Shown piece by piece: positions 45,136-53,513 of a stretch of DNA of 64,000 nucleotides (position 1 is its first letter; every line of letters starts with the position of its first letter). Both the position numbers and the translations under genes were made by a program. This DNA is from a virus. The stretch lies in the IMG/VR virus record IMGVR_UViG_3300009509_000004, positions 42,759 through 106,758 of that record; one strand, written 5' to 3'. The notes under the pieces were generated by a model, which was not told where the DNA came from, searched no databases, and worked only from the letters and a program-made list of their open reading frames with translations.

Positions 45136-45642
45136 CTATTGGATGACGAATGGCCCCTTTGGACCTGTGGCGATGGCCCCGCTGTAGAATTGCTTGAGCA
45201 ATCCCCAAAGCGCCTGTCTTTGTGCATGTGGAACCACGTTGACCTCGTTTTCGCCGTCCCAATGCCGCCCTGGGATGCGCCGCCAAGCGTGAAGTGAATC
45301 CTCGTTGTATGGCGTTTTGACGATGTAGGTGCCTGCGTGGTCAACAATCTTGACCGCAACGCACCTTTTCTCGATGCGATCTGCCAAGTTGTGGAATCCC
45401 AGATCCCTGAGTCTCGCAAGCGGCTCAACCGCGTCCATCCCGTTCTGAACGATGGCGATCTTGTAGACCAGCTGGTTGGCCTCTTTGCGGTCTGCCTCGC
45501 TGACCTCGACCTTGTTGAGAAGTCTTGCCCGACAATCTGGGCCCATTCCCGCCTCGACTGATGCCGCGTCAACCAACGGTTTGCCGCAGGCTGCGCAGTG
45601 GGTTGCGAGAATCTTGGTGGTTGGTGCTGTTTCGTATGACAT
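45136..45642 (-). CDS. DUF6011-like zinc ribbon with HARP-like C-terminal segment
   Basis: The start at 45642 (MSYETAPTTK) has the region's standard leader AAAGGAGAACGGGC; 168 residues. HCAACGKPLVDAASVEAGMG then PDCR (Cys at 16, 19 and 37) is the short zinc motif common in phage/actinobacterial proteins. The end TYIVKTPYNEDSLHAWRRIP then GRHWDGENEVNVVP resembles the HARP fold found beside SNF2 helicases ('i-P-G-R-x-W-D...V-x-P'), which anneals DNA. No helicase domain is present. It is the sole gene of its transcript, behind cassette copy 1. Confidence 0.72.
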   Translation of the reverse strand: MSYETAPTTKILATHCAACGKPLVDAASVEAGMGPDCRARLLNKVEVSEADRKEANQLVYKIAIVQNGMDAVEPLARLRDLGFHNLADRIEKRCVAVKIVDHAGTYIVKTPYNEDSLHAWRRIPGRHWDGENEVNVVPHAQRQALWGLLKQFYSGAIATGPKGPFVIQ

Positions 45643-45685
45643 GCCCGTTCTCCTTTCAGGTGGTTTGCCTTCCACCTTTTCTTCA

Positions 45686-45714
45686 AGTATAGTTGGCTTG
45701 CTTCCATAAGTCAA
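45686..45714 (-). promoter_or_regulatory. Cassette promoter copy 1
   Basis: TTGACT (45709-45714), 17 bp, TATACT (45686-45691). The T-run of the cassette lies directly before the -35 box. This copy has point changes and its terminator stem is poorly paired. It drives the 45136 gene. Confidence 0.85.
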
Positions 45715-45726
45715 GAAAAAACGACC

Positions 45727-46098
45727 TCAGAGACAACTTTTTTTGTATGCCTGATACAGCGCAACGTTCAACGTTGCCGTCCTGGCCGGTTTCTGGACAA
45801 GCCTTGTGCCGTTTGTGTGTTGCGCAAGCGCATCGAGCCATCCCCCTGTGTAAATGACCACTGGAAGTGGGCACCTTTCAATCATCACCCTTCCCCCGCC
45901 CAACGGCACATCCCAATCACTAAGCACCACGTCATACTTCCCTGTTGCCGCCTCGACCAGCCCCTGTTGTACTGTGTAAACTGCCTTGACTTGCTTCCAG
46001 TGGTCCTTGAGTTGCCTCTCAATCGCCCTCGCCAATGTTTCATCATCTTCAACCACAAGCAAACTGAGCCGCCTGATGGTGCCCTCCATTCCAATCAT
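45727..46098 (-). CDS. Single-domain response regulator (CheY-like receiver)
   Basis: 123 residues, start behind AAGGAG. All receiver landmarks are present: acidic pair D18/D19 in VVEDDE, phosphoacceptor D61 in VVLSDWD, T84 in VIYTGG and K103-P104 in VQKPA. There is no output domain, so it would act like CheY or Spo0F, by diverting or sensing host phosphorelay signals. The last codons (YKKSCL) are encoded by the terminator/promoter cassette itself. It is transcribed, if at all, by read-through of a terminator at 46120 or from an unseen promoter. Confidence 0.85.
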   Translation of the reverse strand: MIGMEGTIRRLSLLVVEDDETLARAIERQLKDHWKQVKAVYTVQQGLVEAATGKYDVVLSDWDVPLGGGRVMIERCPLPVVIYTGGWLDALAQHTNGTRLVQKPARTATLNVALYQAYKKSCL

Positions 46099-46119
46099 TT
46101 TTTCTCCTTGGTGGAAGTG

Positions 46120-46142
46120 AAAAGGGCACCCAACGGGTGCCC
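46120..46142 (-). terminator. Intrinsic terminator before the receiver gene
   Basis: GGGCACCC-GTT-GGGTGCCC followed by TTTTC on the minus strand: an 8-bp GC-rich stem with a three-base loop, about 26 bases after the stop of the 46168 gene. It would attenuate expression of the receiver. Confidence 0.8.
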
Positions 46143-46167
46143 CTCTCGCTCCTATGTTGTCGCCCTG

Positions 46168-47181
46168 TCAGGCGATGGCTTCCAAAATCATCTCAGCCTC
46201 ATCCTCTGCCCTCGGATCCAACGACCAACGCTTGATTCCCCTGAAGCGCTTGACGTCAACGTCAATCGGATTCAGGAAGCGAACAAAGCTGCCGTTGATC
46301 TCGACACCTTCTGGGCTGATGATACCGTCTGTGACCAGCTGCTCAACGATCTCCTTGGCGCTCTTGCTCTCGCCCTCTTTGGTGTCTGTCACAACGTAAA
46401 CACCGCCCGCGTGGCGCTTGCCGCACTTGCGCTTGGCCTCGACCTTGACCAACCGCTCTTCAACCGTCCTGAAGCCTCGCTCTTTTTCCATCTGGTCCTT
46501 GACCACCTCGGTGTCCTCTGCCTTCAGAATATACTCAACCGCGTCAGGGAGAAACAAACCAAACACCTTGGCGTCTGGAAGTCTGCCCGTGCCGCCGCAC
46601 GTTTCGCACATTTCCTTGTCCAAAACGTTGGCGATGTTGAATTTTTGCGGCTGATGAAGCCAGTAGTTGTATTTGCGATAGTCCCAACGCTCTGACTTGA
46701 GCCCCTCGCCGTTTGCGACTGTAGCGTGGCCGCCTGTGCCGCCCTCGACATGATCTGACATGCCGCTGATCTCGCCTTGGAGTTTGAGCGCCTTCTGCGC
46801 CCTGCGCTCGATGAGCTTGTTGATGCGGTCGATGTCGGCCTGGCCGCCTTCTGCGTCGCAAACGCCCTTGTCGATGCTCTCTTGGACGCCCTTGGCGTTG
46901 TCTTCCAGATCCTGGATCTCCTTTTGGAGATTTTGGAGCGCTTGCTTGGCCTTGCGCTTTTCTGGATTTTCGATGGTGCCGAGACAATCCGCGCACTCGT
47001 GGAAGCTGCCCTCATCGTGCGCGACGAAAATGACGGTGCCCTCTTGCGTGAGCGCCTGCCCTACGTCTGCGTTGGGTAGCCTCTTGGAAATGCCCTGCGT
47101 GACCGCCTCGCCCGTCCAATCCTCGATGGACTTGTAGTGCTCTGACCCGACCCACATGAGATAGCTTTGCTTGATTTCCAT
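46168..47181 (-). CDS. Coiled-coil protein with DnaJ-like zinc pairs
   Basis: The start at 47181 (MEIKQSYLMWVGSE) has leader AAAGGAGAACGGA; 337 residues. ECADCLGTIE (about residue 65) and MCETCGGTGRLPDA (about 190) are C-x-x-C-x-G-type pairs. Between them lies a long coiled coil (KAKQALQNLQKEIQDLEDNA, then DRINKLIERRAQKALKLQGE). The C-terminal half is alpha/beta. No enzyme motif. It is a single gene behind cassette copy 2; unknown function. Confidence 0.75.
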   Translation of the reverse strand: MEIKQSYLMWVGSEHYKSIEDWTGEAVTQGISKRLPNADVGQALTQEGTVIFVAHDEGSFHECADCLGTIENPEKRKAKQALQNLQKEIQDLEDNAKGVQESIDKGVCDAEGGQADIDRINKLIERRAQKALKLQGEISGMSDHVEGGTGGHATVANGEGLKSERWDYRKYNYWLHQPQKFNIANVLDKEMCETCGGTGRLPDAKVFGLFLPDAVEYILKAEDTEVVKDQMEKERGFRTVEERLVKVEAKRKCGKRHAGGVYVVTDTKEGESKSAKEIVEQLVTDGIISPEGVEINGSFVRFLNPIDVDVKRFRGIKRWSLDPRAEDEAEMILEAIA

Positions 47182-47225
47182 GTCCGTTCTCCTTTGTTTG
47201 GTGTTTGCCCTCACCATCTAATACA

Positions 47226-47254
47226 ATTATAGTTGGCTTGCTTCCAGAAGTCAA
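47226..47254 (-). promoter_or_regulatory. Cassette promoter copy 2
   Basis: TTGACT (47249-47254), 17 bp, TATAAT (47226-47231), identical in both boxes to the consensus of the array. It drives the 46168 gene. Confidence 0.92.
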
Positions 47255-47293
47255 GAAAAAAACGACCTTGGAGGCAACTTTTTTTGTCTCCAC
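47255..47293 (-). terminator. Cassette terminator copy 2
   Basis: A short stem (TGGAG/CTCCA) with an A7 segment in the loop and a T7 run directly before the -35 box. Weaker stem than copy 5, but the layout is the same. It ends the operon 48881-47297. Confidence 0.55.
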
Positions 47294-47296
47294 GTC

Positions 47297-47695
47297 CTAC
47301 AACTTGGTGTAGCCCTTTTTCTGCTTGGCCTTCACCAGATCGGCAAACACGTGTTCTGCCTTGCCTTGGGATGGATACTTGCCCTTGATCTGCCTCTGGA
47401 GAGAATGCGTGCGCCGCCCCCACTCGATTGTCACCTGGAAGTCGCCATCTGCAAGCCTGTCCAAGTGGACGTTGTACACCTTGTCCGATGTCCCTTGGCG
47501 ATAGGCCAAGTTGGTCGTCACGATCCTGGCTGCCTCTGTCGCCCCGTGTGCGTTCTTTGTGTCCAGCGCGTCTGCTATGACGTCTGGTATGGCCTTGGCC
47601 TCTGCCGCTTCCCTCCGCACATCCTCGACACTTTTCAGCACGCCCTGCCCAAAAGTGCCCTCCCTCATCGCCTTTCTGATTTGTTCGAGATCCAT
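47297..47695 (-). CDS. WGR-domain protein
   Basis: The start at 47695 (MDLEQIRKAMREGT) follows GAGGTGGATC; 132 residues. Residues ~70-132 match the WGR domain: DKVYNVHLDRLADGDFQVTI, then EWGRRTHSLQ, KAEHVFADLVKAKQKKGYTK. WGR domains bind nucleic acids in PARPs and bacterial regulators. Here it follows a helical N-terminus and has no catalytic partner. Third gene of the operon behind cassette copy 3. Confidence 0.82.
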   Translation of the reverse strand: MDLEQIRKAMREGTFGQGVLKSVEDVRREAAEAKAIPDVIADALDTKNAHGATEAARIVTTNLAYRQGTSDKVYNVHLDRLADGDFQVTIEWGRRTHSLQRQIKGKYPSQGKAEHVFADLVKAKQKKGYTKL

Positions 47696-47705
47696 GATCC
47701 ACCTC

Positions 47706-48539
47706 TCAATCGAAGCAACCCGTGTTTCGCCAGTACACCTTGAGGTCTGGGTCGAAATACACGGTGTTGTCCGGTGACTCGTATGTTTGCCCCTTCTTGG
47801 CCCCTTCCCGCTCAAACGCCACCACGTAGGAATTGACGATGAACTCGCCGTTGCTGAATCGCAGCTGCGTCCAGCCCTTGTCGCAGAGCGCTTCCAGCGC
47901 GTTGTCGCTGATGGAGCACGGCAATTTGCGCTCTGGCTGCCTGACCTTGAGGATGTGATCGGGGTGGATCCAACGGACATCGCTTGGGCCTCTGAACCGT
48001 TTGCCCATCGCTGCCCCCATCGCCTTGAGCATCGCCAGATCCGACTCGATGCCCCTGAGATTGCGCTCGATGCCGACCTTGCCCGACTGGAAGTTGACTT
48101 TTGCCACCCGCTCCCACTTGCTGCCGTCCCTGTAATTGACCAACACCTCGTCACCGATGCTGATTTTTGTGCCGCTGGGTGCGTTGCGCCAAAATTGTGA
48201 CCCGTTGTAATCCAGATCGCCGATTGCCGCCCTGCCTCGCTCTGCCCGCGCCTGCTTCCGTTCTTGGACTTCCTGCTGCGTGCCTTCCATCTGTCCCAAC
48301 GCCTCGTTGAGCTGCTCCTGGGTGTATGTGCCCTTGGGCAGCCCCAAAAGCGCCTCGCCCTTGACCGTCCAAGCGTAGGTTTTGCCTGTGCGCTCGATGG
48401 GCGCAAGCGTGTACTCTCGCTTGCCTGCGTATTTGCCCCGCCTGATGTACCTGGCGCTTTGGATGACGCAATCGATCCTTTTGCCTTTCGACATGATGCT
48501 GACCGCGTCACCTACCTTGAGTGCTTTGAGATCTGTCAT
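47706..48539 (-). CDS. Unknown protein in cassette region
   Basis: 277 residues (MTDLKALKVGDAVSIMSKGK), leader AAGGAGAACGGGC. The N-terminus looks like a small beta barrel (VGDAVSIMSKGKRIDCVIQS), and a second barrel-like unit begins at KISIGDEVLVNYRDGSKWER. Between them is a charged helix. The C-terminal part ends PDLKVYWRNTGCFD. Barrel pairs like this often bind nucleic acid, but nothing is proven. Confidence 0.74.
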   Translation of the reverse strand: MTDLKALKVGDAVSIMSKGKRIDCVIQSARYIRRGKYAGKREYTLAPIERTGKTYAWTVKGEALLGLPKGTYTQEQLNEALGQMEGTQQEVQERKQARAERGRAAIGDLDYNGSQFWRNAPSGTKISIGDEVLVNYRDGSKWERVAKVNFQSGKVGIERNLRGIESDLAMLKAMGAAMGKRFRGPSDVRWIHPDHILKVRQPERKLPCSISDNALEALCDKGWTQLRFSNGEFIVNSYVVAFEREGAKKGQTYESPDNTVYFDPDLKVYWRNTGCFD

Positions 48540-48593
48540 GCCCGTTCTCCTTGTTGGGTTGCCAACCCTCTTTGTTTTCTACTGAGCTGCCAC

Positions 48594-48881
48594 TTACAGC
48601 GCTGAAATTGCCGCCTCGATGTCTTCTGCCGATGCTCCGTTGAATTTCCCAAACTCCCTGACGCCTTTTTCGGTGATTTCTGCGAAGTAGTGCTTGACCT
48701 TGCGGGTGCGCTGCTCGCTGAAAACCTTGATGAGCCCTTCCTCGGTGAGCTGCTTGACCGCCTCGCCATATCCTGCCTGGAACCAATCTGGGCTGCGAAA
48801 GTTGGTGCCCAACTCGATGATGCCGCCGTTGGTGTTGAGGATGTTGATGAGAATGTCTTTTTGCGCCTCGTTGAAATTCAT
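48594..48881 (-). CDS. Winged-helix-like small protein
   Basis: 95 residues, start behind TAGGAGG (MNFNEAQKDILINILNTNGG). The run of a helix, a helix-turn-helix-like part (GYGEAVKQLTEEGLIKVFSE) and a strand pair (RTRKVKHYFAEITEKGVREF) resembles a PadR/MarR-type winged helix. First gene of the operon behind copy 3; a candidate regulator of the array. Confidence 0.68.
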   Translation of the reverse strand: MNFNEAQKDILINILNTNGGIIELGTNFRSPDWFQAGYGEAVKQLTEEGLIKVFSEQRTRKVKHYFAEITEKGVREFGKFNGASAEDIEAAISAL

Positions 48882-48900
48882 CGTGACCTCCTATTCTTCA

Positions 48901-48929
48901 ATTATAGTTGGCTTGCTTCCAGAAGTCAA
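48901..48929 (-). promoter_or_regulatory. Cassette promoter copy 3
   Basis: TTGACT (48924-48929), 17 bp, TATAAT (48901-48906). It drives 48594, 47706 and 47297. Confidence 0.92.
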
Positions 48930-48968
48930 GAAAAAAACGACCTTGGAGGCAACTTTTTTTGGCTCCAT
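48930..48968 (-). terminator. Cassette terminator copy 3
   Basis: A TGGAG/CTCCA stem, A7 in the loop, then T7 and the promoter. Upstream there is a second small hairpin (GTGTGT...ACACAC). A 25-codon frame behind AAGGAGGTGGAGAACG is superimposed on this copy. Confidence 0.55.
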
Positions 48969-49068
48969 CGTTCTCCACCTCCTTGACGATGTGTGTTTTT
49001 TATACACACACCTGCCCGTGGCCGCCTGGCTGGGCAGCCGCCTGCGCGCCCCGCTGCCGCCGCCGTGC

Positions 49069-49245
49069 CTACTGGCGGTGTGGCGGCTTGACCCGCTTGA
49101 CCTTGCCCGCCTTGGTGTTGCGGGAGTGGTTGGCCTTTGAGCGGGAAAAAAGGGTGCGGCAGAATCCGTCGTTGCGGTCGTTGTAGCTGCCGACCTCGAT
49201 GAAAAGCGCCTTGCGGATGGAGATCTGATTTGCGTTGTTGGTCAT
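49069..49245 (-). CDS. 58-residue basic protein
   Basis: The start at ATG 49245 (MTNNANQISIRKALFIEVGS) carries the standard leader AAAGGAGAACGGA and lies 28 bases after the cassette promoter; TAG at 49069. The peptide is basic toward the end (NTKAGKVKRVKPPHRQ). It is a single gene behind cassette copy 4. Leader and promoter make it a confident gene; function unknown. Confidence 0.75.
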   Translation of the reverse strand: MTNNANQISIRKALFIEVGSYNDRNDGFCRTLFSRSKANHSRNTKAGKVKRVKPPHRQ

Positions 49246-49272
49246 GTCCGTTCTCCTTTGCCCTATTCTTCA

Positions 49273-49301
49273 ATTATAGTTGGCTTGCTTCCAGAAGTCA
49301 A
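49273..49301 (-). promoter_or_regulatory. Cassette promoter copy 4
   Basis: TTGACT (49296-49301), 17 bp, TATAAT (49273-49278). It drives the 58-residue gene. Confidence 0.92.
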
Positions 49302-49302
49302 G

Positions 49303-49343
49303 AAAAAAGTTGCCTTGGGGCCAATTTTTTTTGACCCCAAGGC
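49303..49343 (-). terminator. Cassette terminator copy 4
   Basis: GCCTTGGGG / CCCCAAGGC, a 9-bp perfect stem, 14-base A-rich loop, then CAACTTTTTTC running into the promoter. It ends the operon 50577-49356. The stem bases differ from copy 5 in both arms, so pairing is conserved although sequence is not. Confidence 0.85.
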
Positions 49344-49355
49344 GTGACACCTCCC

Positions 49356-49583
49356 TCAATAGACGATCCAACCCCGCCCCATGTTGTCCCTGCGTCGTGG
49401 GATGTCCTCTGCCGGCACGTCCAACTTCCCTGCGTACACCCCGACCATCAGCGGATCGTCGCAGACGATCCCAACACAAGTGGAACCGTACATACAACGC
49501 CCCGAATATGTTGGGCGCACGCTCGCCTCGTATCCGTCTGACTCCAACGCCTCCACGATTTTCTCTGCTTGCTCCAACGTCAT
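49356..49583 (-). CDS. Small conserved-type protein (YSGR-x-MYG motif)
   Basis: 75 residues with leader AAAGGAGAACGGA. MTLEQAEKIVEALESDGYEA, then SVRPTYSGRCMYGSTCVGIV, matches a short protein pattern (helix, then 'Y-S-G-R-x-M-Y-G-x-T') found in bacteria and phages with no known function. Last gene of a four-gene operon. Confidence 0.76.
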   Translation of the reverse strand: MTLEQAEKIVEALESDGYEASVRPTYSGRCMYGSTCVGIVCDDPLMVGVYAGKLDVPAEDIPRRRDNMGRGWIVY

Positions 49584-49596
49584 GTCCGTTCTCCTT

Positions 49597-49902
49597 TCAA
49601 TCCAAAGTGAAGCGCACGACCCAGCCTGAACCGTGCGCGGCGTGAGTGTATTGAACGGGTGCGCTCGCCTGCCGTAGCTGACCGCCGTGGAGGTGGTGGA
49701 AGTAGGGTTGCCGGATGAGCGCCCTCAAAACCACCTCCTGGACCTTCCTGATGTCCTGGAAGTCTGCTGGCGAGTCTGCGAGCACGGTGACCTCTGCTCC
49801 GATGACCTGATATGGGTCGTGCTGGCGACCTCTCGCTGCCGCTTTGACCATTAGACTGGGCCTGAACCCAGCCTTGATCGGATTTTGGTGGATGACCTTC
49901 AT
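49597..49902 (-). CDS. Unknown small protein
   Basis: 101 residues (MKVIHQNPIKAGFRPSLMVK), start overlapping the upstream stop (ATGA). HDPYQVIGAEVTVLADSPAD followed by a helix suggests an alpha/beta fold. No family recognised. Confidence 0.7.
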   Translation of the reverse strand: MKVIHQNPIKAGFRPSLMVKAAARGRQHDPYQVIGAEVTVLADSPADFQDIRKVQEVVLRALIRQPYFHHLHGGQLRQASAPVQYTHAAHGSGWVVRFTLD

Positions 49903-50084
49903 TCTCGCTTCCCCTCGACCTCGACTGAGAATTTCAACTCAATGTCGTATCCGTTCTCAGGATTTTCGTGAACAAAATCGACCATTTCCTTGAGCGCTTC
50001 CATTGCCTCCTGCCAGGAAAGATCCCGATCTGTACACCGACCGTCCACCCAAAATTCCACTTTTTTCAGTAGTTTTGTCTTCAT
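49899..50084 (-). CDS. 61-residue unknown protein
   Basis: The start at ATG 50084 (MKTKLLKKVEFWVD) follows GGGAGAACGGGCA. A compact alpha/beta pattern (strand, helix EAMEALKEMVDFVHE, strand YDIELKFSVEVEG). Second gene of the operon behind copy 5. Confidence 0.7.
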   Translation of the reverse strand: MKTKLLKKVEFWVDGRCTDRDLSWQEAMEALKEMVDFVHENPENGYDIELKFSVEVEGKRE

Positions 50085-50097
50085 TGCCCGTTCTCCC

Positions 50098-50577
50098 TTA
50101 GCTGCTTGCCAAGCCAAAAAATACAAAAACTTTGCCGTGTCGCCCCGCCATCCCGTAGCGCTTTTTGTACTCGACCGTTGCGCTGTAGCCCAACTCGATG
50201 GCGAGCGCTGGCCCCCACTTGTCGTTGTAGCGCCTGGCGTGACTGAGCGCCCAGGTGCGATACTGCTTGGGAACCTGACGGATGAAATTGCGCTTGGCCT
50301 CTTTGTCGTCTGAATCCGACTCCTGGAAGAATGCCGCCGCCTCGATCCAACCGATGGCCTTGCCGACCTTGACCTGCTTGTTGGGAAGCTGGATGAGGGT
50401 GTAACCGTGCTTGGAAGCGATGTCGCCGCTGTAGCTGTAGAGATCCTCATCGCAAGCGTCGTATCCGTCGCAAGCCATATCCGCCCGCCTCTCGCTGGCC
50501 GCCTGGTCTTGCGCGTTGCGGAAAGCCGCCCCGATGTCTTTGCCAAATGCCGTCGTTGAGAATTCACATGCGCCCAT
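50098..50577 (-). CDS. Conserved-type protein (GA-x-x-F-x-T-TA-FGKD family)
   Basis: The start at 50577 (MGACEFSTTAFGKD) has leader AAAGGAGAACGGA; 159 residues. GACEFSTTAFGKDIGAAFRN and SYSGDIASKHGYTLI resemble a conserved small-protein family found in plasmids and phages ('f-x-t-T-A-x-G-x-x-A-x-x-A-F...Y-x-G-x-I-A-x-K'). The C-terminal half adds WALSHARRYNDKWGPALAIE. Function unknown. Confidence 0.74.
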   Translation of the reverse strand: MGACEFSTTAFGKDIGAAFRNAQDQAASERRADMACDGYDACDEDLYSYSGDIASKHGYTLIQLPNKQVKVGKAIGWIEAAAFFQESDSDDKEAKRNFIRQVPKQYRTWALSHARRYNDKWGPALAIELGYSATVEYKKRYGMAGRHGKVFVFFGLASS

Positions 50578-50609
50578 TTCCGTTCTCCTTTTGTTTGCCC
50601 TATTCTTCA

Positions 50610-50638
50610 ATTATAGTTGGCTTGCTTCCAGAAGTCAA
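50610..50638 (-). promoter_or_regulatory. Cassette promoter copy 5
   Basis: TTGACT (50633-50638), 17 bp, TATAAT (50610-50615). It drives 50098, 49899, 49597 and 49356. Confidence 0.92.
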
Positions 50639-50639
50639 G

Positions 50640-50682
50640 AAAAAAACGACCTTGGAGGCAACTTTTTTTGTCTCCAAGGTCG
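50640..50682 (-). terminator. Cassette terminator copy 5 (best copy)
   Basis: CGACCTTGGAG / CTCCAAGGTCG, an 11-bp perfect stem, then TTTTTTT one base before the -35 TTGACT. It is a textbook intrinsic terminator abutting a promoter. It ends the 50693 transcript. Confidence 0.93.
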
Positions 50683-50692
50683 CCATCTCCCC

Positions 50693-51028
50693 TCACTCTC
50701 CTTTCACAAACCAATCGACAGGGGCAAGCCCCAAGTATCCGTTCAGCCGCTCAAATACCTCGTTGGCGTCCAAGCAACCCTCGATCCGACTCCGCACCGC
50801 CTCCACGAAACACCGCGCCCCGATTGTCGAGACAACGCCGTTGAGAATCAGCCAACGGCCATCAGCGATCTCGATCTCCACCATCTTCCCATCTTCCTCA
50901 AATAGAATCTGGGCAGCTGTCTCGCCCTCGCCCACCTCCCACGTATAGTGGGCACCCTCGCCATCGCCGTCCACGAAAAACCCAGCAACGATGGCTCTCT
51001 TGGTCTCTTTGATTTTCTTCTTCATCAT
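50693..51028 (-). CDS. Unknown acidic protein
   Basis: The start at 51028 (MMKKKIKETKRAIV) has leader AAAGGAGAACGG; 111 residues. A basic start is followed by strands (AHYTWEVGEGETAAQILFEE, then VEIEIADGRWLILNGVVSTI) and a helix. It is behind a degenerate cassette copy. No family recognised. Confidence 0.72.
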   Translation of the reverse strand: MMKKKIKETKRAIVAGFFVDGDGEGAHYTWEVGEGETAAQILFEEDGKMVEIEIADGRWLILNGVVSTIGARCFVEAVRSRIEGCLDANEVFERLNGYLGLAPVDWFVKGE

Positions 51029-51070
51029 CCGTTCTCCTTTCAAGTTGGTATGCCGTCCAACCATACTTCA

Positions 51071-51099
51071 ATTATAGTTGACACCCCCGACTATTTTTG
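51071..51099 (-). promoter_or_regulatory. Degenerate cassette promoter copy 6
   Basis: TATAAT (51071-51076) is intact, but the expected -35 position (51094-51099) reads CAAAAA and the spacer differs. It probably drives 50693 weakly or needs an activator. Confidence 0.5.
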
Positions 51100-51404
51100 G
51101 TCCATTTTGCAGGTTGGAGGCAATTTTTTTTGTCTCCACGTACTTTTTTTGAGAGCCAATTTTTTTTTGCCTCCACGTTCTTTTTCTCTTGACTTCTGCT
51201 CCCCAATTTTCTCAATTTCCAAAGTCTATTGAATAGATTGCGGAGAACCCACGCCCGCTTGGCTCGTTTGCGTCGTGCCTCTCGCTCAAGCCCCGCTTGG
51301 ATATGCTCCACCCATGCCGCTCGATGTGGGTTTTCTTGGCTCTGCCGATCTTGCAATTGCGGAAAGCCACGTCAAAAAAAGTTGGCTCTGAAGTCTCTTT
51401 TTTC

Positions 51405-51433
51405 TTGACTACAACTTCTTTTGGCGTTATACT
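51405..51433 (+). promoter_or_regulatory. Inverted cassette promoter (plus strand)
   Basis: TTGACT (51405-51410), 17 bp, TATACT (51428-51433), preceded by the cassette's T-run and a GTTGGCTC segment. It is the only cassette promoter on the plus strand. It points at structured, non-coding DNA and then antisense into the 51580 gene. Confidence 0.75.
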
Positions 51434-51483
51434 ATACTTGCGGGGTGTATGCTGCATTCGCGTGCTACCGTTTGCCTGAACCT

Positions 51484-51502
51484 TCTAACGCGCCGCGTTA
51501 GA
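51484..51502. repeat. 19-bp perfect palindrome
   Basis: TCTAACGCG-C-CGCGTTAGA, two 9-bp arms around one base, about 50 bases downstream of the plus-strand promoter. It may be an operator or, in the transcript, part of a structured RNA. Confidence 0.65.
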
Positions 51503-51579
51503 GCAAGGCAGATCTCCCCCTTCCTCCCCAGCGGTGCTGGTAGGTACCAGTACTGTCCTGGATGTGCTTCCACCTGCTC

Positions 51580-51792
51580 CTACGGCAGAACGTGGACCAC
51601 GGTGAAGCCTCTCGACTGCGCCGTGGCCTTGGCCTGCTGGCGTGCCTCGGTGAAGGTGCCGGTGAAGCTGACCCAATTATCCATGTTGTCTGGATCGTCG
51701 CCCAGAGCGAACATCCACGCCCCAAAACCCTTGGGTTGCTTCATGTGACTGCGGAAGAATGCTGCGGTTTCAACTGATACTCTCTTTGCCAT
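51580..51792 (-). CDS. Small conserved-type protein (F-x-A-W-M-F motif)
   Basis: 70 residues, leader AAAGGAGAACGGA. MKQPKGFGAWMFALGDDPDN then WVSFTGTFTEARQQAKATAQ, ending GFTVVHVLP, resembles a short phage/bacterial protein of unknown function (aromatic strand, 'G-x-x-x-E-A' helix, final strand). A single gene behind cassette copy 7. Confidence 0.76.
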   Translation of the reverse strand: MAKRVSVETAAFFRSHMKQPKGFGAWMFALGDDPDNMDNWVSFTGTFTEARQQAKATAQSRGFTVVHVLP

Positions 51793-51819
51793 GTCCGTTC
51801 TCCTTTGCCCTATTCTTCA

Positions 51820-51848
51820 ATTATAGTTGGCTTGCTTCCAGAAGTCAA
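51820..51848 (-). promoter_or_regulatory. Cassette promoter copy 7
   Basis: TTGACT (51843-51848), 17 bp, TATAAT (51820-51825). The segment before it is the usual T7 run, with GGCTCC in place of GCCTCC. It drives the 51580 gene. Confidence 0.92.
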
Positions 51849-51914
51849 GAAAAAAACGACCTTGGAGCCAACTTTTTTTGACCCACCACTTCCACTGAGC
51901 AATGCCCTGAACAG

Positions 51915-51947
51915 AAAAGTAGGAGTGCCCCACAACGGGGCACTCCT
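51915..51947 (-). terminator. Intrinsic terminator of the 53183-51978 operon
   Basis: AGGAGTGCCCC / GGGGCACTCCT, an 11-bp perfect stem with a 5-base loop, then ACTTTTC. It is independent of the cassette and stands just upstream of copy 7, making double insulation. Confidence 0.85.
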
Positions 51948-51977
51948 TGGGCAAATGGAGAACGGATGACGATCTGG

Positions 51978-52586
51978 TCAGCGCTGATCTGTCTTCAAGA
52001 TCCCAAAGCGCTGCGTGAGCTTGTATTCATCGATGAGCTGATCTGCGATGTCCTTGTTGCCCAGCTCTTGGGCAAGCATCGTCAGCACCAACCCGATGAT
52101 GTTGTGCGTGTAGTTGCCATTCTGTTGGAGTGCTCGCCTGATGCGCGATCTCGCCTTGGTGACTGCTTCTGGCTCGTTGTCCGGCACCTTGTCGCAGATG
52201 CACTCGACCCTGCCGCAGATCTCACAAAGTGGGCGTGGGGCTGGCTTTTCCGATTTGCTGGGTGCCTTCTTGGCCTCCCTCGCTGCCTCCCCTGCCGCCT
52301 CTCGTGTTTTCGATTTGATCTTGACCTTCCCCTTGGGCTTGGTCTGCTTTTTGCCTCCTTGCTGTGTTTCTGCGTGCTGGCCCTCGCTGGGTGCCTCTGG
52401 TGCCGTGTAGCCTTTCTCTCTGATGTCGCCGTGAGCTTCGCAATCTGGATTGCGACAGAATGCGTATGGGTCAGACTTCTTGACTGACCTGTACTTGCCT
52501 GCCGCCTGAAGCTCTGGGTCTGGCATGTGCTTGAAGAGAATCTTGCCGCACGCGGGACAAGGTGGCTGTTTTGGTCTGCCTGCCAT
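51978..52586 (-). CDS. Zinc-ribbon protein with basic linker
   Basis: 202 residues, start behind AGGAGG (MAGRPKQPPCPACGKILFKH). Two zinc sites: CPACG with FCRNPDCEAHG, and CEICGRVECICD, separated by a Lys/Ala-rich linker (KKQTKPKGKVKIKSKTREAA). The C-terminal ~50 residues are helical. The architecture suggests nucleic-acid binding. Second gene of its operon. Confidence 0.74.
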   Translation of the reverse strand: MAGRPKQPPCPACGKILFKHMPDPELQAAGKYRSVKKSDPYAFCRNPDCEAHGDIREKGYTAPEAPSEGQHAETQQGGKKQTKPKGKVKIKSKTREAAGEAAREAKKAPSKSEKPAPRPLCEICGRVECICDKVPDNEPEAVTKARSRIRRALQQNGNYTHNIIGLVLTMLAQELGNKDIADQLIDEYKLTQRFGILKTDQR

Positions 52587-52598
52587 GGTAGCCTCCTG

Positions 52599-53183
52599 TT
52601 ATGCCCGCTCGATGACGGTTGCTAGGTTGAAAAGTGCCTCGCTGATTTCGCTGCGCCCCTTGACCTCTGCGACCTCTGCGAGACTGAGGGTGCGCTCGAT
52701 GGCGCTGTCCCTGTCGTAACTGAACTGCTGCGTTTGCGCGACTTGAAGCGCCTTGTCGGTGTACTCTTTGGCCGTCGTGAACTCGTGACCGTTGAGCGCC
52801 CGCTCGATGACCTGAAGCGCCTCTTGAACGATGTGGACGGTGACCTTGCCGTAGCTGGTGCTGCGACGGTTGCCTGCGTAGGTGGTGCGCGTCCAAACCT
52901 GGTAGCCCTTTGCGCGCTTGATTTGCTGGGCCTGCTCCCAAAGCTCCTTTGCGATGGCCCAAGTGAAAGTGACCTCGGTGATCTCGACTGCCGACTTGAC
53001 AAACGCCTTGCTTTCGCCGTGTCGGGTGCTGGCCCCGCCGTTGCGCGCTTCCTTGGCGCTGCTTACCTCGCCCCAACACCGCACGATGGCTTCTGGCTTG
53101 GCGCGAAAGTCGATGGCCTGAACGATGTACTTGCGACCCGTTGCTTTGACTTCTGCGATGCGTTCTTTTCTGATTGGCTTCAT
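52599..53183 (-). CDS. Unknown protein in cassette region
   Basis: 194 residues, leader AAAGGAGAACGGG. RKYIVQAIDFRAKPEAIVRC then WGEVSSAKEARNGGAST (an 'I-R-C-x-G-E-V' strand) and SKAFVKSAVEITEVTFTW resemble a family of small conserved bacterial/phage proteins. The C-terminal half is helical. It heads the operon behind copy 8. Function unknown. Confidence 0.72.
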   Translation of the reverse strand: MKPIRKERIAEVKATGRKYIVQAIDFRAKPEAIVRCWGEVSSAKEARNGGASTRHGESKAFVKSAVEITEVTFTWAIAKELWEQAQQIKRAKGYQVWTRTTYAGNRRSTSYGKVTVHIVQEALQVIERALNGHEFTTAKEYTDKALQVAQTQQFSYDRDSAIERTLSLAEVAEVKGRSEISEALFNLATVIERA

Positions 53184-53210
53184 TCCCGTTCTCCTTTGCC
53201 CTATTCTTCA

Positions 53211-53239
53211 ATTATAGTTGAAGCCAATCCAGAAGTCAA
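53211..53239 (-). promoter_or_regulatory. Cassette promoter copy 8
   Basis: TTGACT (53234-53239), 17 bp, TATAAT (53211-53216). The spacer differs from the other copies in six or more bases while the boxes are kept, which argues for selection on the boxes. It drives 52599 and 51978. Confidence 0.92.
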
Positions 53240-53262
53240 GAAAAAAGTTGCCTTGGAGGCAA
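53240..53262 (-). terminator. Cassette terminator copy 8 (bidirectional)
   Basis: TTGCCT-CCA-AGGCAA followed by CTTTTTTC on the minus strand; on the plus strand the same stem is followed by T8. It ends the upstream 53277 transcript. Confidence 0.75.
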
Positions 53263-53276
53263 TTTTTTTTGGCCCC

Positions 53277-53513
53277 TCATCCGATGTTGATTTTCTTGAG
53301 CCTCTCAATGGGCACCCTGTCATTCGGATCGCCGTTCAACTCGATCTCTGTCGGGATGTCAATGCCAATCTCGTTGAACACGATGTGTCGCATCTCAAAC
53401 CCGCTGATCCGCCCCTCACGCTGGATGCCTTCTGAAGTCTCCAATCGCACAAACTCGCCAACTGAGTTGACCAGCTCGTCAATCCATTTCCCTGTCTCGC
53501 TCTTGTTCGCCAT
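53277..53513 (-). CDS. Small beta-barrel protein, Sm-like (tentative)
   Basis: The start at 53513 (MANKSETGKWIDEL) follows CAGGAGG; 78 residues. A short helix, then SVGEFVRLETSEGIQREGRI, SGFEMRHIVFNEIGIDIP and PIERLKKINIG give five strands in the Sm/Hfq order. RNA binding is a guess from the fold pattern. It overlaps the next gene by 35 bases. Confidence 0.62.
   Translation of the reverse strand: MANKSETGKWIDELVNSVGEFVRLETSEGIQREGRISGFEMRHIVFNEIGIDIPTEIELNGDPNDRVPIERLKKINIG

Follow-up and report, generated by a model that had tools for sequence, protein, structure and literature searches.

Repeated candidate terminator–promoter–start-signal cassettes at gene boundaries in the early region of an uncultivated myophage

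The 64,000-nucleotide window analyzed here comprises bases 42,759–106,758 of the 106,758-bp record IMGVR_UViG_3300009509_000004, which derives from an uncultivated bacterial virus whose genome we label G000. The genome is probably complete at ~106.6 kb, because a 144-bp direct repeat lies at both record ends; two other contigs represent the same phage at 99.99–100% identity. Between window positions 45,642 and 53,285, in the early, hypervariable region of this myophage, a unit recurs on the minus strand that joins a T-run, preceded in many copies by a hairpin, to a sigma70-type promoter and a leader ending at a start codon. We refer to this unit as a cassette. Copies are named by the first T of the −35 hexamer, in window coordinates unless the genome is specified, and all cassette genes discussed are on the minus strand.

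The sequence TTGACT-N17-TATAAT occurs exactly at six minus-strand sites (47254, 48929, 49301, 50638, 51848 and 53239; 0.01 expected), and a seventh site, 45714, reads TTGACT-N17-TATACT, just as a preliminary description of this DNA had stated. Cassette c1 (45642–45759) has a weak or absent stem, T6C, its promoter at 45714–45686 and a leader carrying GGAGAACGG before ATG 45642; the response-regulator-like gene upstream has its stop codon within this cassette. Moderate stems are found in c2 (47181–47299; outer stem, T7C, promoter 47254–47226, a longer and diverged leader with GGAGAACGG, ATG 47181) and in c3 (48881–48974; T7C, promoter 48929–48901, start signal GGAGGTCACGATG). The stems of c4 (49245–49346; 13 pairs at 49343–49312, T6C, promoter 49301–49273, GGAGAACGG, ATG 49245) and c5 (50577–50684; outer stem, T7C, promoter 50638–50610, GGAGAACGG, ATG 50577) are strong. 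No convincing stem is present in c6 (51792–51894; T7C, promoter 51848–51820, GGAGAACGG, ATG 51792), and c7 (53183–53285; T6C, GGAGAACGG, ATG 53183) has an inner stem, TTGCCTCCAAGGCAA, at 53262–53248 and a promoter at 53239–53211 with an altered spacer. The T6–T7 run previously noted in each unit is thus present in all seven copies, and with its following C it directly abuts the −35, which places the T-run one base upstream of that hexamer.

A matrix built from these seven copies scores them at 84–123 bits and locates two further minus-strand copies, at genome positions 16629 (69 bits) and 15324 (40 bits), together with an inverted, plus-strand copy at window position 51405 (10 bits); the maximum in 20 shuffles was −11 bits, as against 40–123 bits for the nine minus-strand copies. 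The preliminary count of seven copies and one degenerate copy therefore stands for every member it named and was too low, as it missed both distant copies and the inverted one. The distant copies keep the stem, the T-run and TTGACTTC, and differ in spacer and −10; given a circular or permuted genome, this places them upstream of the array, in the same direction of transcription. Genome-wide, 15 sites match the promoter at 10 or more of 12 positions, nine of which are cassettes (eight on the minus strand plus the inverted copy), and every short hairpin-plus-T-run found in a strict scan belongs to a cassette. In four copies a stop codon lies no more than ~40 nt before the cassette start. Chance and assembly artefact were considered as sources of the repeat family and ruled out, the latter because of the terminal repeat and because a second contig, spanning the two distant copies and not the main array, is 99.99% identical across both of them. 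Scans of viral contigs for an exact 34-mer and for TTTTTNTTGACTTNTGGAAGC, and a megablast of 10.5 kb against phages, gave no match.

Two irregular copies lie between c5 and c6. The degenerate cassette (51028–51144, minus strand, near 51084) keeps an A8/TTGCCTCC half-stem, the TATAAT and the leader, with GGAGAACGG preceding ATG 51028, and has lost its −35 and T-run. The inverted cassette, c10 (51360–51433, plus strand), runs from A7GTTGG to T6C, followed by TTGACT-17-TATACT, and has a weak stem. The surrounding ~500 bp (51030–51580) lack a convincing gene and hold fragments of several cassettes in both orientations as well as the palindrome CTAACGCGGCGCGTTAG; the plus-strand promoter would read antisense into gene 51580–51792. 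Separately, at 48990–48900 an orphan ribosome-binding site and ATG (GGAGGTGGAGAACGATGGAGCC; GGAGGTGGAGAACGATG) open a 25-codon frame that enters the 5′ end of c3, and this resembles a scar left when a deletion reached the cassette.

GGAGAACGG, a Shine–Dalgarno motif, stands just before the ATG in all seven array copies except 48929, which has GGAGGTCACGATG instead, so that the common leader ending described earlier holds with this one exception. The motif has 12 minus-strand sites, confined to the cassette regions, and all 12 lie just before an ATG: nine at cassettes, the degenerate one included, and three inside operons. Because GGAGAACGG always precedes an ATG, we consider the cassette to span from the terminator to the start codon. 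A gene placed behind a cassette would be expected to be expressed at once.

Folding gives strong hairpins at 49301 (−25.1 kcal/mol) and at 50638 (−23.3 kcal/mol), in agreement with the long stem already reported for the latter copy, and moderate ones at 47254 (−11.6 kcal/mol) and 48929 (−13.8 kcal/mol), where an outer stem carries the A-run in its loop; 53239 has a short inner stem alone, TTGCC/GGCAA. The family uses two kinds of stem. In the outer kind the 5′ arm precedes the A-run; the inner kind is TTGCCTCCAAGGCAA, used by 53239 and both distant copies. Hairpins well outside the range of shuffled sequence (z −2.9 to −7.6), each ending at the T-run, occur at 48929, 49301 and 50638 and in both distant copies. 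The arrangement of an intrinsic terminator, a G+C-containing hairpin directly before a U-tract, is found at 49301, 50638, 53239 and genome positions 15324 and 16629, and is unconvincing at 45714 and 51848. A hairpin of −6 kcal/mol or better precedes a T-tract in 9 of 10 G000 copies, as against 12 of 400 random positions, and reaches −10 kcal/mol or better in only five. A terminator stem had been claimed for each unit; this holds for two strong, two moderate and one short stem, and fails at 45714 and 51848. We also considered the inner stem as a universal structure and dropped it, as most array copies have it broken or paired by wobbles only.

Related phages show what happens between such boundaries. 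Relatives were contigs reached through the portal protein, together with 14 loci of related phages that carry homologues of the conserved gene behind c2 (46168–47181) and were found with a three-sequence alignment of it; as a single query this gene returned no phage or viral relative. The upstream flank of the variable interval, at 51978–53513, contains the conserved genes 53277–53513 and 51978–52586, with 52599–53183 between them. The order 53277–51978–variable interval–46168 is kept in about ten relatives, and the interval measures 0.2–2.5 kb in them versus 4.8 kb here, where it holds mostly ORFan genes and five cassettes. Within this interval, L051 has a homologue of 47706. The order in L061 is 49356–promoter–49089–promoter–46168–response regulator, with L061’s own repeated promoter in between; no homologues of the c3 unit lie between its homologues of 49089 and 46168, and its homologue of 45136 belongs to a unit several kilobases distant that follows a further copy of the L061 promoter. 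Promoter-bounded modules have thus been gained, lost and relocated, the kind of gene change between boundaries that the preliminary description had proposed to look for; because the relatives compared are distant, the breakpoints themselves are not visible.

Most relatives with enough sequence also have a promoter family of their own at these conserved places: TCGACTTGTGGAAGCA in G004, TTGCCTCGTGGAAGCG and similar sequences in G012, TTGCAAGTTGAAGCGAAG in G006, and further distinct families in L051, L054, L061 and L063. Several start codons of G004 lie only a few bases past the −10.

We propose, and consider likely, that composite cassettes of terminator, sigma70-type early promoter and start signal insulate ORFan modules and provide homology for their shuffling. 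Each cassette would be a composite boundary part of ~90–120 bp. Its first half would act as an intrinsic terminator (hairpin plus T6–T7) serving the gene or operon before it. The second half would be a strong sigma70-type promoter with the −35 one base behind the T-run, and the third part a leader with the conserved Shine–Dalgarno/start motif. The A/T tract would be shared, probably serving as an upstream promoter element and, where a stem precedes it, as the terminator U-tract. Near-identical copies would constitute homologous dispersed duplicates, and recombination between copies or neighbors could insert, delete or move whole promoter–gene modules while sparing the expression of others. In this scheme we infer termination at the T-runs, early use of the host RNA polymerase, and recombination as the agent of change.

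Several observations weigh against this proposal. For 45714 (z 0.8), 51848 (z 0.0) and the inverted copy, shuffling the sequence yields stems just as good. Selection on stem structure, as previously suggested, finds modest evidence in the outer stem, where ten copies show 9 two-sided pair changes versus 4.7 expected and 5 of 500 shuffles reach as high, a figure that does not translate into a probability because the copies are related rather than independent; the inner stem of the same ten copies has no two-sided changes. Of the ten promoters of G004, nine carry the A/T tract and none has a terminator at that position; for this reason insulation is not general in the group. Use of the host sigma70 is suggested by the promoter consensus. 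The higher promoter identity within one genome (mostly 0.6–0.9) than between matching places of two genomes (0.5–0.6) speaks for the proposal and fits lineage-specific amplification or homogenization, although the between-genome values lie near the gapped-alignment background for unrelated sequence. No near relative spanning the array was found, so that recombination from one cassette to another was not directly observed. As for the insulated transcripts listed in the preliminary description, sequence, position and relatives support the boundaries; insulation itself would be weak at two of the seven copies, and the list omits gene 50693–51028, behind the degenerate copy.

Could the unit be a repeated promoter only, with A/T tracts that act as an UP-like element or bend, hairpins that are incidental or decaying, and no insulation? 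An A/T run five or more bases long adjoins the −35 in 10/10 copies of G000, 9/10 of G004 and 5/5 of G012, against a background that is 1.6% in G000 and 1.2–1.6% across these genomes, and such a run is kept in 2/2 of L063. In these relatives hairpins are absent or mostly weak: a hairpin of −6 kcal/mol or better precedes a T-tract in 0/10 promoters of G004 and 3/5 of G012, one of whose composites has a strong stem (−20.8) of unrelated sequence. Because the tract persists without a hairpin in several relatives, it is probably a promoter element first, which in G000 would also serve as a terminator U-tract. The stemless copies 45714 and 51848 also favor the promoter-only reading, and 51848 is accompanied by a separate, strong intrinsic terminator of 12 pairs (51921–51947, minus strand) upstream of c6, where the operon 53183–51978 ends, and not at the 51848 cassette as had been supposed. 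Yet a promoter alone does not account for the five hairpins that exceed shuffled sequence and end at the T-run, or for a hairpin and T-tract at 9 of 10 copies when the background is 3%, and we regard this explanation as unlikely. Also improbable, to our minds distinctly so, is an operator role, in which the spacer motif TGGAAG(C), together with inverted repeats close to it, would be bound by a phage or host protein, creating a co-regulated regulon like those of stoperators or extended start-associated sequences (ESAS). TGGAAG or TTGAAG does keep the same spacer offset in four phages (G000, G004, G012 and G006) despite 40–50% protein identity of the surrounding genes, and G004 adds inverted repeats: at 74,700–89,930 (L027, L028), CCACAA lies ~45 bp upstream of TTGTGGAA, which falls across the −35, at near-constant spacing. 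The motif is altered, however, in G000 copies 53239, genome 15324, genome 16629 and the plus-strand copy, it is replaced in L051, L054, L061 and L063, and no repressor gene was identified. Such a role would be compatible with insulation and shuffling and does not exclude them.

Near-identical dispersed copies, one of them inverted, might also suggest a small mobile element carrying a promoter, resembling a miniature inverted-repeat transposable element. On inspection the copies showed neither terminal inverted repeats nor target-site duplications; they occupy the gaps from a stop codon to the next start codon, and the promoters of relatives at equivalent places differ in sequence. We rejected this reading for its lack of end repeats and give it almost no weight. 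With regard to the proposed insulating cassettes, their fusion could itself be functional: once a polymerase releases its transcript in the T-run, it already stands at the following −35, and post-termination reinitiation, demonstrated in vitro (PMC6978380, PMC6978322), might hand it onward. We think this a long shot; if true, reinitiation would balance output along the array while transcripts are kept separate.

The genes between cassettes are organized in short units on the minus strand. Between c5 and c4 lie four genes, mostly ORFans (49356–50577: 50098–50577, 49899–50084, 49597–49902 and 49356–49583), and behind c3 lie three (47297–48881: 48594–48881, 47706–48539 and 47297–47695, the last with a WGR domain). 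Behind conserved gene 46168–47181 stands a separate terminator-like hairpin (46120–46142, minus strand; GGGCACCC-GTT-GGGTGCCC-TTTT). The response-regulator-like gene (45727–46098) has a receiver domain just below the cut-off, and its homologues sit behind the 46168 homologue in L054 and L061.

Elsewhere the genome encodes a tail sheath, a portal, an SbcC/SbcD-like nuclease, dCMP deaminase, uracil-DNA glycosylase and a sigma70 region 2-like protein. The latter, of 380 amino acids (L006:12096–13238, genome coordinates, minus strand), lies downstream of the cassette at genome position 15324; a match to sigma70 region 2 (Pfam 1.9e-5, narrowly above the cut-off; PHROG sigma factor 0.0014) makes it a possible phage sigma factor acting on later genes. 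At L006:13235–16547, a MoxR/CbbQ-type AAA ATPase and a CobT-like VWA protein are encoded, one directly behind each distant cassette. Outside the window, an 80-bp direct repeat of 82.5% identity (genome 29780–29859 and 31004–31083) is unrelated to the cassettes. The portal matches phrog_12, with Aeromonas HJ05, Rhizobium and Pseudomonas phages the nearest named at ~31–34%. Searches of the phage for Gp23 and for a single-subunit RNA polymerase gave no match, with positive controls equally silent, and the portal protein found no match among genome contigs in the search for a host.

A fused terminator–promoter used as a repeated boundary had been called unusual. That judgment is not upheld, because similar parts are published in T4-like phages and, in related form, in mycobacteriophages. 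Promoter-early stem-loops (PeSLs) of T4-like myoviruses were reportedly described by Arbiol et al. in 2010 and Comeau et al. in 2014. In PMC4503421, PeSLs are cited as composite promoter–terminator motifs that mediate modular shuffling in T4-like phages. The cassettes resemble them as small composite motifs in many similar copies. Here too a promoter and stem-loop form an intergenic repeat, with a strong or moderate stem in roughly half of the cassettes and a weak one in two or three, and copies are concentrated where gene turnover is high, as in the regions of modular shuffling that PeSLs occupy. They differ in that the nearest named portal matches of G000 are not T4-like, that promoter and terminator have one T-run in common, and that a spacer motif and a start-signal motif belong to the unit. 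By analogy, the array may work like a set of PeSLs, a likeness of kind that carries no claim of descent.

Cluster K mycobacteriophages have start-associated sequences (SAS) and ESAS before start codons (PMC3203893, PMC11373665). Like GGAGAACGG, which is conserved and closely precedes many start codons, SAS are short sequences with a consensus that differs between subclusters, and the ESAS subset, with an upstream promoter of 17–18 bp spacing and an imperfect inverted repeat, is comparable to the cassettes. The ESAS repeats have not been presented as terminators joined to a −35, whereas the repeat in G000 ends in a T-run beside it; neither the Cluster K GGGATAGGAGCCC nor its 17-bp inverted repeats occur in the cassettes, whose sequences differ. 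The haloarchaeal virus HGTV-1 has a repeated motif of TATA-like box and inverted repeat before many open reading frames, which its authors likened to PeSLs (PMC3950731). Its promoter is of the archaeal type, and we liken it to the cassettes by description. Phage morons are additional genes, each equipped with a promoter and a terminator; they are single insertions with unrelated signals, whereas here one repeated part serves many modules.

The cassette is therefore a known kind of part in a different phage group. These data add a separate group of uncultivated phages to those with composite terminator–promoter cassettes, and they link the cassettes to a start-signal motif. Because about ten relatives have the same flanking genes and different content between the boundaries, the group offers a test of cassette-driven gene turnover. 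A simple route of origin is also suggested, in which a promoter-related A/T tract beside the −35 may become a terminator through the addition of an upstream stem.

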